A stretch of DNA of 64,000 nt, from NCBI RefSeq assembly GCF_004212215.1, contig NZ_QVFV01000002.1, positions 209,794 to 273,793 on the forward strand, read 5' to 3'. Source of the stretch: Leptolyngbya iicbica LK (GTDB lineage Bacteria > Cyanobacteriota > Cyanobacteriia > Phormidesmidales > Phormidesmidaceae). A program made the position numbers and the translations under genes. The notes beneath the pieces are model-generated. The model did no database searches and had not been told where the DNA came from. It saw nothing but the letters and a program-made list of their open reading frames with translations. How positions within the stretch are numbered: the stretch's first letter is position 1; each line of letters starts with the position of its first letter. Positions 5,740-44,198 of this stretch are shown piece after piece.

Positions 5740-5913
5740 GTGCCGAGCGAGGCGATCGCACAATTACGCGACCGTCCGCTAAGTCAGGATATTGAACCGG
5801 ACTCTCTGGAAAAGCGATTTTCCCTCCCCGATCAGCGACTTAGTAGGTCGTCTAGCGCGGTTAATTTGGGAGCGGTAATAACGGAAAATCGCTTTGTTGC
5901 GCCGCTATTTTGA
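5740..5913 (+). CDS. Doubtful 57-residue frame overlapping an inverted repeat
   Basis: A GTG preceded by AAGGAA opens a 57-codon frame with ordinary protein-like composition (PSEAIAQLRDRPLSQDI, then LEKRFSLPDQRLS) and the end RFVAPLF. No family is recognised. The same stretch carries a perfect 13-bp inverted repeat, AAAGCGATTTTCC at 5811-5823 and its complement at 5883-5895. The locus may therefore be a structured repeat rather than a gene. It converges on the uraD gene 10 bp away. Confidence 0.28.
   Translation: MPSEAIAQLRDRPLSQDIEPDSLEKRFSLPDQRLSRSSSAVNLGAVITENRFVAPLF
5811..5895. repeat. 13-bp perfect inverted repeat, 59-bp spacer
   Basis: AAAGCGATTTTCC at 5811-5823 is repeated as GGAAAATCGCTTT at 5883-5895. 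The left arm is itself nearly palindromic (GGAAAAGCGATTTTCC). It could form a long hairpin downstream of uraD on the minus strand, or be a binding site or mobile-repeat remnant. Confidence 0.6.
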
Positions 5914-5923
5914 AGCATAGGGA

Positions 5924-6427
5924 TTAGTCCTGCACTAATGCTCCAAGGCGATACCCGGCAATTTTGGCAATCTCGGCCAAGGCGGTTTGACGCTCCGTTG
6001 CCGCGTCGTGGGTCAAGCGCTGACGAAAGGCAGCCAAAATTGAGGTTTTGGTGTGTTCTTTGACGGCGACGATAAAGGGAAAATGGAAGCGATCGCGATA
6101 CGCCTGATTCAACTCCGAGAAAGTGGCAAACTCCTCTGGCGAGAGGCGATCAAGGCCAACCCCGGCTTGCTCTTGCACGGATGAGTCGGCCATTTTGGCT
6201 TTAGTGCCCAGATCGGGATGCGCTCGGATTAGCCGTAACTGATCTTCGGTTGGCAGGGCTTGCATCACTGTCACCATCGCCTGATGCAATGCTTCCACCG
6301 TCGCAAAGGGACGCTGGGGCCAAGCCTTTTGAGCGATCGCGGGCGTGTGCTCAAAAATATCGCCTAATGCCTGGGTGAAATGCACTTCATCCATTTCGTT
6401 CAACGCCGCTAAAGTAACTTGCCCCAT
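5924..6427 (-). CDS. uraD: OHCU decarboxylase (ureidoimidazoline decarboxylase)
   Basis: A 167-residue protein of the 2-oxo-4-hydroxy-4-carboxy-5-ureidoimidazoline decarboxylase family. It catalyses the last step of the urate-to-(S)-allantoin conversion. The catalytic-histidine motif RAHPDLGTKAKM is visible, followed by GLDRLSPEEF and FPFIVAVKEHTK. It is the last gene of a minus-strand operon: flavin urate hydroxylase, hydroxyisourate hydrolase, this enzyme. It lies 5 bp behind uraH. Length is normal for the family. Confidence 0.95.
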   Translation of the reverse strand: MGQVTLAALNEMDEVHFTQALGDIFEHTPAIAQKAWPQRPFATVEALHQAMVTVMQALPTEDQLRLIRAHPDLGTKAKMADSSVQEQAGVGLDRLSPEEFATFSELNQAYRDRFHFPFIVAVKEHTKTSILAAFRQRLTHDAATERQTALAEIAKIAGYRLGALVQD

Positions 6428-41320: not shown

Positions 41321-41352
41321 GCGTGGTGCGAGCTTTGACTGATCCGGGCTGA

Positions 41353-41384
41353 GCAAAAAGGGACGGCTGATTAGCCATCCCTTC
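41353..41384 (-). terminator. Hairpin terminator between convergent genes
   Basis: GGGACGGCT and AGCCATCCC form a stem with one mismatch around GATT. On the minus strand it is followed by TTTTT, fitting termination of the glycosyltransferase-like/cyclase operon. On the plus strand it lies 40 bp after yajQ. Confidence 0.75.
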
Positions 41385-41416
41385 CTGTTCATGAGGCCTC
41401 AGATTCGAAGCGGGGA

Positions 41417-42427
41417 TTAAGAACTCGCTGTGGCTACCCGGCGAGGATTCCAGCGCGATCGCGACTCTTCAATATGCATGTTCTTCTCATCTTTTTTGAG
41501 GTGGCGAGGGCTGCTCTCAAAGGACAGCGAAGACGGCAACGGATCAGTGCCATAGGCTTGCTGAATAAAGGCCGACACGGTGGCATAACTCGGTGAAAAC
41601 GGAGCGTCGATCGCGGCTTGCGTTTCCATTAAAGCCGCAGAAAACAGTCCGGTGCCATCGTCAAAGAACCGTTCTGTGGTTGCGCCATAGGTTTCATAGG
41701 GGTGGAATGCCAGATCATCAGGAGCCGTCGCGGCTACCCAGGACGAATAGATCCAATATTCGCCGTAGGTGCCGAACTCATTAGCCGATCGCATCATCAA
41801 CTTCAGCCAATGTTCGTCAGAACCGTAGTAGGCTTGCACCCGCTGGGCCATCGCCTGCAAGTGCGATCGCTTCATCCACATGTGATGGGGAATAAATGTT
41901 CCCGCTGCATCGATAATCGCCTCGACCTTGAGGACGGAGCGAATCCAATTGGCCCAGGTATCCACGATTTTGGCATTCCCCGTTTGGTTACTTTGCAACA
42001 GAGCAAAGGTATGTTTGGTTGCCCCATCCACTGTTTGGAAAATTGGCCAGGTAGCCACTGGCAGCAAATCACTATCCCACACTAAGTACCATTCGCTCAG
42101 GTCAGGGATGCCCTCGTAAGCCCCCAGCTTTAGAAGCTGCTGGTAAAACCAACCTGGCGTGTACAAAGATTCTCCTAAATCTAACTCCGCGCAGATGGCT
42201 TCTTTGGAAAGGCCGACGGGACTAAAGAACAGCTCCTCTTCGTGCACCACAATCGGAGCGGTCTGCCAGCTTGCGGCCTGAGTGCGCAGAGCTGCCGCTT
42301 CGGTTGTGGGCGTAATGATGTGGATGGTGCGGGGCTGGTAGTGCTGGGTCAATCCCTCCAGCACCGCCCGCGTGTTCCACCGCACTTTAAAGAGCGGAAT
42401 GACACAGTCAAAGATTTCCGTTGACAT
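41417..42427 (-). CDS. Glycosyltransferase-like protein (DUF6492-type) in cyclase operon
   Basis: A 336-residue protein starting at ATG 42427, only 4 bp after the stop of the sugar-phosphate cyclase. The N-terminus FDCVIPLFKVRWNTRAVLEGL and PRTIHIITP look like a nucleotide-sugar Rossmann half. WYLVWDSDLLPV gives a DxD-like metal motif, followed by FIPHHMWMKRSHL. From memory this resembles a DUF6492 glycosyltransferase-like family. The frame is open further upstream into the cyclase gene but that is a shadow. It may glycosylate the cyclase product; this is inference from coupling. Confidence 0.75.
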   Translation of the reverse strand: MSTEIFDCVIPLFKVRWNTRAVLEGLTQHYQPRTIHIITPTTEAAALRTQAASWQTAPIVVHEEELFFSPVGLSKEAICAELDLGESLYTPGWFYQQLLKLGAYEGIPDLSEWYLVWDSDLLPVATWPIFQTVDGATKHTFALLQSNQTGNAKIVDTWANWIRSVLKVEAIIDAAGTFIPHHMWMKRSHLQAMAQRVQAYYGSDEHWLKLMMRSANEFGTYGEYWIYSSWVAATAPDDLAFHPYETYGATTERFFDDGTGLFSAALMETQAAIDAPFSPSYATVSAFIQQAYGTDPLPSSLSFESSPRHLKKDEKNMHIEESRSRWNPRRVATASS

Positions 42428-42431
42428 CGGC

Positions 42432-44198
42432 TTACGCGATCGCCTCCTGCACTGACGACAATATCTCGGCAGCCGCGGGAGTGTGATGTGCCACCGTAGA
42501 AGGATCTTCCAGCCCCACATCACTACAGAGCGGATCGATGCCCACTCCACCCCGGGGATACTCCGCACAGATGGCTTGATATTCCGACACGGCAATAATC
42601 AACTCATCTTGGGTCATGGCGTTGAGGTAGCCACACTGACCAATCGTGCCCTTTGGCAGCGGAGCCACCAAATTATTTCCGCGCTTTTGCACCATTTTTT
42701 CTTGGGCTTCCCACATGAGGTCGCGATCGAGCAGCACATCACTCCACAGGCTGAGCCCAAAGGAGTTAATCAAATTCAAAATGCGATGGAAATCGGCTTT
42801 ACTAATCCACTCATGGCGATAGCTCAGGTAAGCGCCAAAACCCATGCCGATCGCGACCGCGTGACCATGCAGCAAACCCGCCGCAATTTCAAACCCAGGC
42901 GACCAGGTATGACCGTAGGCGTGGGGGCGGCACTGATGGGTTTCGTACAGATTGTCGTATTCCGCCTCGACATAGCTGCGCATCGCTGCGCCGAGGATTT
43001 TCTGCGACAGTTCGCAAATGGGCGCATCGGCTGGACAGTCCAACGTGCCAAAGCGAGTGGCGATGAGCTCAGGTCCCGCCTGCTCTAAATACGCAAACAG
43101 CTCGGCATCCTTGACCGTCGCCATTTTGATGATTTCCGCAATGCCGTGACGCAACCACCCTTCCTTTAAAGTCTTGAAAAAAGCGCGATCGGTAATCGAC
43201 AGCACCGGGGCGTGGTAAGCCCCAAACAAATTTTTATAGCCAAAACCGTCGCAGCAGGTGCGGGGCGAGGGGCCAGCATCAATGCCCGCCACAATGGAAG
43301 TGGATAGCATGACGTAGGGCGTATTGCGGTGATACAAAGCGCAGGCTAAACCGCCCGTATCCGTCAGAACGCCACCCCCGACAATGAGCACGGGCTCATT
43401 TCGCGAAACGCCCAAGCGCTTAAAGTCGCCCAGCATTCGCTCTACGGTGTGAATGCCCTTATCGACTTCCATCGCCCGATACACCAGTTTGTCCAACTGA
43501 ATATCGTGATGGGTAAAGTAATGCTCAATCTGTTCGCCATAAAAGCGCTCAACGTTTTGATCCAGCAGCGCGACACAGCGACCCGCCGAGATGTACATGT
43601 CGCGCAGAATAGTTTGCTGCGGATCAAGCACATTTTCCAACACGCGAATAGAGGTAAAGGTGCTGGAAGTCATGACCGCTTCGACCGTCTGATCGTCATC
43701 GGTGCTGACCACAAAGCCCTGACTCTGACGATAGCTAGAGGTGGGATAAATGGCGTGGGGATCTGCTTCCACCAGATGCTCGGCCAGTTGCCGGTAAAAC
43801 TCCCCAGCAGAACCATGAACCAGCACTTGCAGAAGCTTTTCTTGCCCGAGCGAGGACCGACGAATTTGCGTTGCCATCTCAGTCCATAAGACCCCAGACG
43901 ACATGTCAAATGCGCCTAAGAGTTCGGACATGAGGCCAAAAAAGTGACTGAGAGAGCCATTCAAACAGCTGCGCAAGCGCCGACAAGCCGATAGCCCTGT
44001 GATGGCCCCGGCCATGGCAAATTCTTGTCCGAGTTCTGGTGCAAAGGCGGGCGCATTAATCAAAGCCAGTAGCAAATCACGAAATGGCAAACTCGCAAAA
44101 AGCTGATCGGTCGCCTTTTCCAGGTCTTGACCGAGTAAGGATTGACCGTCGTACGCTGCGATAAAGGTCTTCACTGCTGAAGTAGTCGAAGTCATCAT
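42432..44198 (-). CDS. Sugar-phosphate cyclase with N-terminal extension
   Basis: A 588-residue dehydroquinate-synthase-fold enzyme. Residues about 165-560 are the cyclase: NAD-site PVLIVGGGVLTDTGGLAC, the specificity loop SPRTCCDGFGYKNLFGAYH, and the three zinc ligands in HGIAEIIKMA, AYGHTWSPG and LLHGHAVAIGM. The specificity loop differs from true dehydroquinate synthase (VNxxxGKNxxGxF) and points to sedoheptulose-7-phosphate cyclases (valiolone or gadusol type). The exact product is unassigned. Residues 1-155 form an extra helical domain I cannot name. ATG 44198 follows AGGA. It is first in an operon with the glycosyltransferase-like gene. Confidence 0.85.
   Translation of the reverse strand: MMTSTTSAVKTFIAAYDGQSLLGQDLEKATDQLFASLPFRDLLLALINAPAFAPELGQEFAMAGAITGLSACRRLRSCLNGSLSHFFGLMSELLGAFDMSSGVLWTEMATQIRRSSLGQEKLLQVLVHGSAGEFYRQLAEHLVEADPHAIYPTSSYRQSQGFVVSTDDDQTVEAVMTSSTFTSIRVLENVLDPQQTILRDMYISAGRCVALLDQNVERFYGEQIEHYFTHHDIQLDKLVYRAMEVDKGIHTVERMLGDFKRLGVSRNEPVLIVGGGVLTDTGGLACALYHRNTPYVMLSTSIVAGIDAGPSPRTCCDGFGYKNLFGAYHAPVLSITDRAFFKTLKEGWLRHGIAEIIKMATVKDAELFAYLEQAGPELIATRFGTLDCPADAPICELSQKILGAAMRSYVEAEYDNLYETHQCRPHAYGHTWSPGFEIAAGLLHGHAVAIGMGFGAYLSYRHEWISKADFHRILNLINSFGLSLWSDVLLDRDLMWEAQEKMVQKRGNNLVAPLPKGTIGQCGYLNAMTQDELIIAVSEYQAICAEYPRGGVGIDPLCSDVGLEDPSTVAHHTPAAAEILSSVQEAIA

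Follow-up and report, generated by a model that had tools for sequence, protein, structure and literature searches.

A 64,000-nucleotide stretch of the Leptolyngbya iicbica LK genome (contig NZ_QVFV01000002.1, positions 209,794 to 273,793; hereafter the window) carries, on its minus strand, a gene for a sugar-phosphate cyclase followed by a gene for a protein of family DUF6492. The locus raises the question of what such a pair makes in the absence of a classic mycosporine cluster. An earlier note on this DNA proposed a minimal pathway to a glycosylated cyclitol, which stands as the best reading; the conserved partnership with a transferase-like gene and the lack of mycosporine ligases were likewise supported. 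Our analysis makes it probable that the pair is a two-gene branch of mycosporine biosynthesis, in which desmethyl-4-deoxygadusol (DDG) is made and then conjugated with a sugar or sugar phosphate.

Both reading frames are intact in a genome of 5.7 Mb that is 99.99 % complete, and the two-gene layout with its 4 bp gap and shared hairpin terminator was borne out. A small correction to the earlier coordinates concerns the cyclase start, for which orthologues prefer the second ATG (44195). The terminator hairpin (GGGATGGCTAATCAGCCGTCCC-TTTTT) was shown by RNAfold at -26.4 kcal/mol in the 51-nt stretch 41345–41395, though a simple consensus terminator scan did not list it. The ratios of nonsynonymous to synonymous substitution (dN/dS) were 0.03–0.06 for both genes, indicating strong purifying selection.

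The cyclase scored above the Pfam cut-offs for DHQ_synthase and DHQS_C, with the domains spanning residues 241–487, and shows the hallmarks of the sugar phosphate cyclase superfamily, namely domains of the dehydroquinate synthase (DHQS) fold, a GGGxxxD NAD motif and a Glu/His/His metal site. The nearest solved sequences to residues 183–555 were desmethyl-4-deoxygadusol synthase (DDGS, 5tpr) and the 2-epi-5-epi-valiolone synthase (EEVS) ValA (4p53). For the whole-protein model the best structural match was DDGS 5tpr (Z 49.2, 2.0 Å, 374 residues, 36 % identity), with ValA (Z 42.9) and DHQSs (Z about 37) ranking lower. Besides the cyclase, the genome encodes a single further DHQ-synthase family member, an ordinary AroB on another contig, C1; the loop PSPRTCCDGFGYKN, previously described as unlike that of DHQS, was confirmed in the cyclase and differs from the loop of this AroB. 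An AroB duplicate was ruled out, since the score with the NCBIfam AroB equivalog model was 133.9 bits (cut-off 305) and a separate AroB exists.

Homologues of the cyclase were of three types, termed class A, class B and canonical MysA. Class-A members were at least about 65 % identical to the window cyclase within cyanobacteria and 55–58 % in Bacteroidota and others, class B approximately 45 % and canonical MysA 36–42 %. Class A has at its N-terminus a helical domain of roughly 146 residues, unmentioned in the earlier note, that class B and canonical MysA lack; a profile of residues 1–146 searched against Pfam and PDB sequences returned nothing convincing. In the maximum-likelihood tree, in which EEVS and DHQS were the only references outside DDGS and 2-deoxy-scyllo-inosose synthase was left out, class A formed a single clade (99/98) with class B as its sister (A+B, 100/99). 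Canonical DDGS was the fully supported sister of A+B, the three formed a group (100/99), and EEVS and DHQS fell outside. The window cyclase is a class-A enzyme and very probably an alternative cyclase of MysA/DDGS type. EEVSs (ValA, 4p53; vertebrate gadusol EEVS) share its superfamily and fold but carry Asp and His at two positions where DDGS has Ala and Thr and class A has Ala427 and Lys505. We take these two positions to be the class-separating ones from the alignment of 5tpr with ValA and from a published fingerprint. An EEVS/gadusol route was ruled out by the tree position and by Ala427 and Lys505 in place of the EEVS residues.

A contig scan for relatives of class A recovered 58 loci, and no relatives were found in viral contigs. 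Class-A loci were present in records labelled Aquimarina, Nonlabens, Saprospiraceae, other Bacteroidota, Planctomycetaceae, Rhodospirillaceae, Polaromonas and Nitriliruptoraceae, although many of the non-cyanobacterial records are metagenome-assembled genomes (MAGs), so their taxon labels need caution. At most of these loci the neighbouring genes encoded O-methyltransferase, ATP-grasp, D-Ala-D-Ala-ligase-like and HAD hydrolase proteins, often with a TauD dioxygenase as well; the first three are homologues of mysB, mysC and mysD. The cyclase, mysB and mysC were consecutive in two Phormidesmis-type cyanobacteria (L071, L073), and in three further cases (G003/L164, G337/L165, G213/L166) a mysB-mysC(-mysD) cluster without mysA was found with the class-A gene elsewhere. 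MysC was present in 19 of the 38 genomes reached via the loci, and class A was the sole cyclase of the type acting on sedoheptulose-7-phosphate (SH7P; called at E below 1e-50) in all 19, 11 of them non-cyanobacterial by record title and eight cyanobacterial. Among 390 cyanobacterial genomes, class A and canonical MysA never occurred together (chance about 0.4 %). Class A therefore fills the slot of the 'missing mysA' in non-cyanobacteria and in some cyanobacteria. The mys clusters of Hyella patelloides and most Pleurocapsales have been described as apparently lacking mysA, the part played by mysA-like homologues being left open (PMC8472315). To this class A offers an answer, as the sole SH7P-type cyclase in several MysC-containing, mysA-less genomes, including H. 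patelloides LEGE 07179, Pleurocapsa CCALA 161 and LEGE 10410.

A functional anchor is provided by Halothece PCC 7418 (= Aphanothece halophytica), in which mysA (PCC7418_1590) is unlinked to mysB-D (1078–1076) and whose mysABCD genes, introduced into Synechococcus, lead to accumulation of mycosporine-2-glycine (PMC12981126). In genome G430, MysC lies at 1,176,660 (gene 1077), the class-A gene at 1,742,903 (gene 1590), and a class I and a class II aldolase side by side at 3,074,096 and 3,075,551. This gives a spacing per gene number of 1093 bp for MysC, 1096 bp for class A and 1080 bp for the aldolases. The gene numbers in this positional match were those of PMC12981126 and PMC9374696 and, for the adjacent aldolases (H2846/H2847), those given in PMC7151593. 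Only two DHQS-family genes are present in G430. From gene position and uniqueness, we infer that its class-A gene is Halothece mysA PCC7418_1590. Aligned end to end, N-terminal domain included, the encoded protein is 71 % identical to the window cyclase. The earlier description of an atypical cyclase therefore holds as far as atypical features go but not as to an unknown class: the enzyme is sister to DDGS/MysA, has homologues in mysB-mysC-mysD clusters, and to a large extent does cluster with a characterised class. One class-A member appears already to be known, as the mysA used in Halothece; the class-A clade, its N-terminal domain, the link to DUF6492 and the cross-phylum role as an alternative MysA were undescribed in the literature searched.

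The presence and absence of the genes was surveyed in the same 390 cyanobacterial genomes. Class A was found in 40, class B in 11 and canonical MysA in 47, with classes A and B together in one. MysC accompanied class B or canonical MysA in 57 of 58 genomes, versus seven of 40 for class A. A DUF6492 relative was present in 36 genomes, 35 of which have class A, the exception (G373) being approximately 70 % complete; this co-occurrence is far beyond chance (Fisher p about 2e-43, from counts over related genomes). The partner is thus retained in 35 of the 40 class-A genomes, which speaks for its conservation across cyanobacteria, the point on which the earlier note had staked the pairing. Three of the five class-A genomes without DUF6492 have MysC; in the remaining two, G009 and G091, the cyclase locus is cut or fragmented. 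The 45 class-A rows of the tree divided into 15 with MysC only, 23 with DUF6492 only, seven with both and none with neither, and at least one of MysC and DUF6492 was present in each class-A genome examined that had intact contigs.

The window genome belongs with those that have DUF6492 only, as do Leptolyngbya PCC 7375 and Xenococcus PCC 7305. As previously noted, no classic mycosporine genes lie near the pair, and no MysC homologue was found anywhere in the genome. A MysB-type methyltransferase was likewise absent genome-wide, the sole MysB-like match being a generic O-methyltransferase (43 % identity) without the first approximately 100 residues of MysB. The mysB and mysC companions expected of a DDGS were therefore not found, although MysC occurs in 22 of the 45 class-A rows, and an ordinary mycosporine cluster with dispersed genes was ruled out by the lack of MysC. 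It is unlikely that the product is an ordinary glycosylated mycosporine-like amino acid (MAA) whose remaining steps are carried out by enzymes that are non-homologous, encoded elsewhere or not recognised as such. MAAs bearing sugars have been described (PMC11378024), and class A, DUF6492 and MysC share a genome in seven of the 45 rows, but this proposal has to contend with the missing MysC and the truncated, generic match to MysB, as well as with 33 of the 40 class-A cyanobacterial genomes being without MysC.

The distribution on the tree requires about eight changes in MysC presence and five in DUF6492. In one genome, G230, the working cyclase lies in a mys operon, while the DUF6492 gene is found at another locus (L173), intact and downstream of the decayed N-terminus of a class-A cyclase (5782–6168; 43 % over residues 1–129). 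This arrangement suggests that in G230 the pair is the older form. Both the repeated changes in MysC and the G230 fragment would fit a pair that is decaying after the loss of the mycosporine pathway to which it belonged. Because both genes are under strong purifying selection, have intact frames and invariant catalytic residues, and persist as a pair in over 30 genomes, we consider this explanation very improbable.

The partner protein matched Pfam DUF6492 (PF20102) at E 3e-12 (46.6 bits versus a gathering threshold of 22.9), and its AlphaFold model (pLDDT 82, pTM 0.87) has a GT-A fold. It is predicted from this model to be a GT-A sugar-nucleotide transferase. The earlier label of a DxD glycosyltransferase-like protein was supported by the fold and by an invariant DxD motif, and is here amended to a DUF6492 protein for which sugar or sugar-phosphate transfer may apply. 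No sequence-level link from DUF6492 to Stealth or other solved transferases was found.

Building on the pairing, the clade, the fold, the conserved metal ligands, the absence of MysC and the replacement of MysA by this clade elsewhere, we infer the product, the donor, acceptor and activity of the transferase and the role of the pair as follows. The DDGS route from SH7P is known (PMC4426668), and by analogy with Halothece mysABCD, which gives mycosporine-2-glycine (PMC12981126), the cyclase most likely converts SH7P to DDG. In this Zn- and NAD-dependent reaction SH7P would be oxidized, lose phosphate, be cyclized and be rearranged to DDG, the core of mycosporines. The DUF6492 enzyme would then use a nucleotide sugar donor to transfer a sugar or sugar phosphate onto DDG or a close derivative, perhaps at the hydroxymethyl group of the cyclitol. 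The most economical reading is that it would replace MysB/MysC as the consumer of the cyclase product. For sugar conjugation of that product we see somewhat better than an even chance. Since the window genome lacks the MysB, MysC and MysD steps, the pair would yield the ring joined to a sugar, quite likely without amino acids. Such a compound could serve as a soluble UV-B-absorbing or antioxidant solute.

Several observations weigh against this two-gene mycosporine branch. The first concern the active site, in which four residues of class A differ from all characterized classes. Arg313 stands in place of the loop lysine of DHQS, DDGS and EEVS, and Asp317 in place of the next Asn (class B keeps the Asn), so that the lysine and Asn of the canonical DDGS loop (IAIKVAVN) are both lacking in the window cyclase. 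Tyr409 replaces the Met of DDGS/EEVS and the Lys of DHQS, and Lys505 the Thr of DDGS and the His of EEVS. The loop IDAGPSPRTC is common to classes A and B, as compared to IDAxxAIKVAVN in canonical DDGS and IDAGIGAKTGVNF in EEVS. With these differences, a product other than DDG is possible on sequence grounds: the cyclase might make a new C7 cyclitol that the DUF6492 enzyme glycosylates. The loop core DAGPSPRTCCD is invariant in 33 of 33 aligned family members, as would suit such a separate function, but the same invariant loop occurs in members within mysB-mysC clusters, the loop Arg is shared with class B, whose genes sit in mysB-mysC operons, and the class is taken to contain Halothece mysA, which supports mycosporine-2-glycine synthesis. 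We therefore regard a non-DDG product as unlikely, although it is the least unlikely of the competing explanations.

Halothece itself adds a second reservation, as G430 was assigned to it by gene position, not by name. Unlike the window genome it has mysB-C-D and no DUF6492 gene, so the characterized case is uninformative on the pair. The either-or pattern of MysC and DUF6492 amounts to few independent changes, and a sign test on independent pairs was not significant. As for the partner, we know of no characterized member of DUF6492, and no paper on the family was found in the literature searched. The top folds for its model were Stealth-type phosphotransferases (CpsY, Z 14.8; GlcNAc-1-phosphotransferases, about 14), with other GT-A enzymes at Z about 11 or less. 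Because Stealth-type transferases score highest in this ranking, sugar-phosphate transfer is a serious alternative to plain glycosylation for the modelled enzyme. The same ranking would also suit an enzyme of Stealth type that transfers sugar phosphate to an envelope polysaccharide, the cyclitol being a cap or decoration there. This is improbable, as no polysaccharide genes recur next to the pair, the Stealth Pfam domain was detected in none of 28 DUF6492 members, and a common fold does not mean a common function.

The pair was also compared with known systems. The DDGS/MysA of Anabaena variabilis (Ava_3858, 5tpr), the nearest structure and a member of the sister clade, has the same fold, Zn ligands, NAD motif and Ala where EEVS has Asp; the window cyclase differs from it in overall sequence (approximately 36 % identity), in having a helical domain added at its N-terminus, Arg instead of the loop Lys and Lys505 instead of Thr, and in its setting in the absence of mysB, mysC and mysD. 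Class-B MysA-like cyclases (L157–L163) share with class A the IDAGPSPRTC loop, an RPHAYGH-type motif and Lys at the 505 position, but are only approximately 45 % identical, have no helical N-terminal domain and carry Asn at the 317 position. The Stealth phosphotransferases (Mycobacterium tuberculosis CpsY, GNPTAB) are closest to the partner in predicted fold, at 8–14 % identity over aligned residues. Enzymes of family GT4 have a GT-B fold. MysG (GT4) and MysJ of Nostoc UHCC 0302 (PMC11378024) resemble the partner as sugar transferases linked to a mycosporine cyclase; unlike them, it is a DUF6492 protein with a GT-A fold.

These results widen the known range of mycosporine-type clusters to take in Bacteroidota, Planctomycetota and proteobacterial MAGs. 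They also propose a first activity for a DUF6492 family. Searches for mysA at a 40 % identity threshold, as in PMC11378024, are predicted to tend to miss class-A pathways. More tentatively, and at slightly less than an even chance, a previously undescribed, ligase-free mycosporine branch exists in dozens of mostly marine cyanobacteria, whose two-gene unit would join DDG to a sugar or sugar phosphate by means of a second MysA active-site type and a new, DUF6492 class of sunscreen-core transferases.

Table 1. Features of the two-gene unit, in window coordinates
Feature	Position	Strand	Basis
Class-A sugar-phosphate cyclase (very probable alternative MysA/DDGS type), 588 aa	42432..44198	-	Pfam, predicted fold, tree clade 99/98
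N-terminal all-helical domain, residues 1–146	43761..44198	-	AlphaFold model; alignment
Cyclase core, residues 177–564	42507..43670	-	Range of structural alignment to 5tpr
Active-site loop DAGPSPRTCCDGFGYKN, residues 307–323	43230..43280	-	Alignment of classes A, B, canonical MysA, EEVS, DHQS
Zn ligand Glu355	43134..43136	-	Aligned to DHQS/DDGS metal ligand; invariant
Zn ligand His430	42909..42911	-	Aligned to DHQS/DDGS metal ligand; invariant
Zn ligand His446	42861..42863	-	Aligned to DHQS/DDGS metal ligand; invariant
Intergenic gap, 4 bp	42428..42431	-	Cyclase stop TAA 42432–42434; DUF6492 gene ATG 42425–42427
DUF6492 protein, predicted GT-A-fold sugar-nucleotide transferase, 336 aa	41417..42427	-	Pfam, AlphaFold, fold matches
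DxD motif D118-S-D120 in LVWDSDLLP	42068..42076	-	D118 and D120 invariant, 28 homologues
Intrinsic terminator of the two-gene unit (hairpin + T5), downstream of DUF6492 gene	41355..41381	-	RNAfold

Other observations concern the mys loci recovered in the surveys. Class-B cyclases at L157–L163 lie within mysB-mysC(-mysD) operons and have the PSPRTC loop as in class A; mycosporine cyclases seem to be of two active-site types. A HAD hydrolase and a TauD dioxygenase recur with mysB-mysC-mysD in clusters without canonical mysA (L164, 3735–5241; L074, L076, L086, L089), where they may carry out extra tailoring steps. Sodium:solute symporter genes lie within or beside the mys clusters of L166 (8284–9699; Pfam SSF) and L160 (7246–8676; similar N-terminus) and possibly encode mycosporine transporters.

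A third DHQS-family gene (approximately 410 aa, E about 1e-23) was found in several close relatives (G003:C19:73995, G001:C479:704, G002:C12:34529) and not in the window genome. Five genomes (G070, G299, G083, G329, G318) had MysC and no cyclase over the 1e-60 threshold, of which G070 has an EEVS-like gene. In the region L167, 3545–8117, this cyclase with EEVS-type residues (Asp in ERLVDYGH, His in TKHRN and the loop AIGAKTAVNF) lies directly upstream of three genes, which encode an O-methyltransferase, a protein homologous to MysC (59 %) and a member of Methyltransf_2; the cluster possibly represents a cyanobacterial route to mycosporines or gadusol that is based on EEVS.

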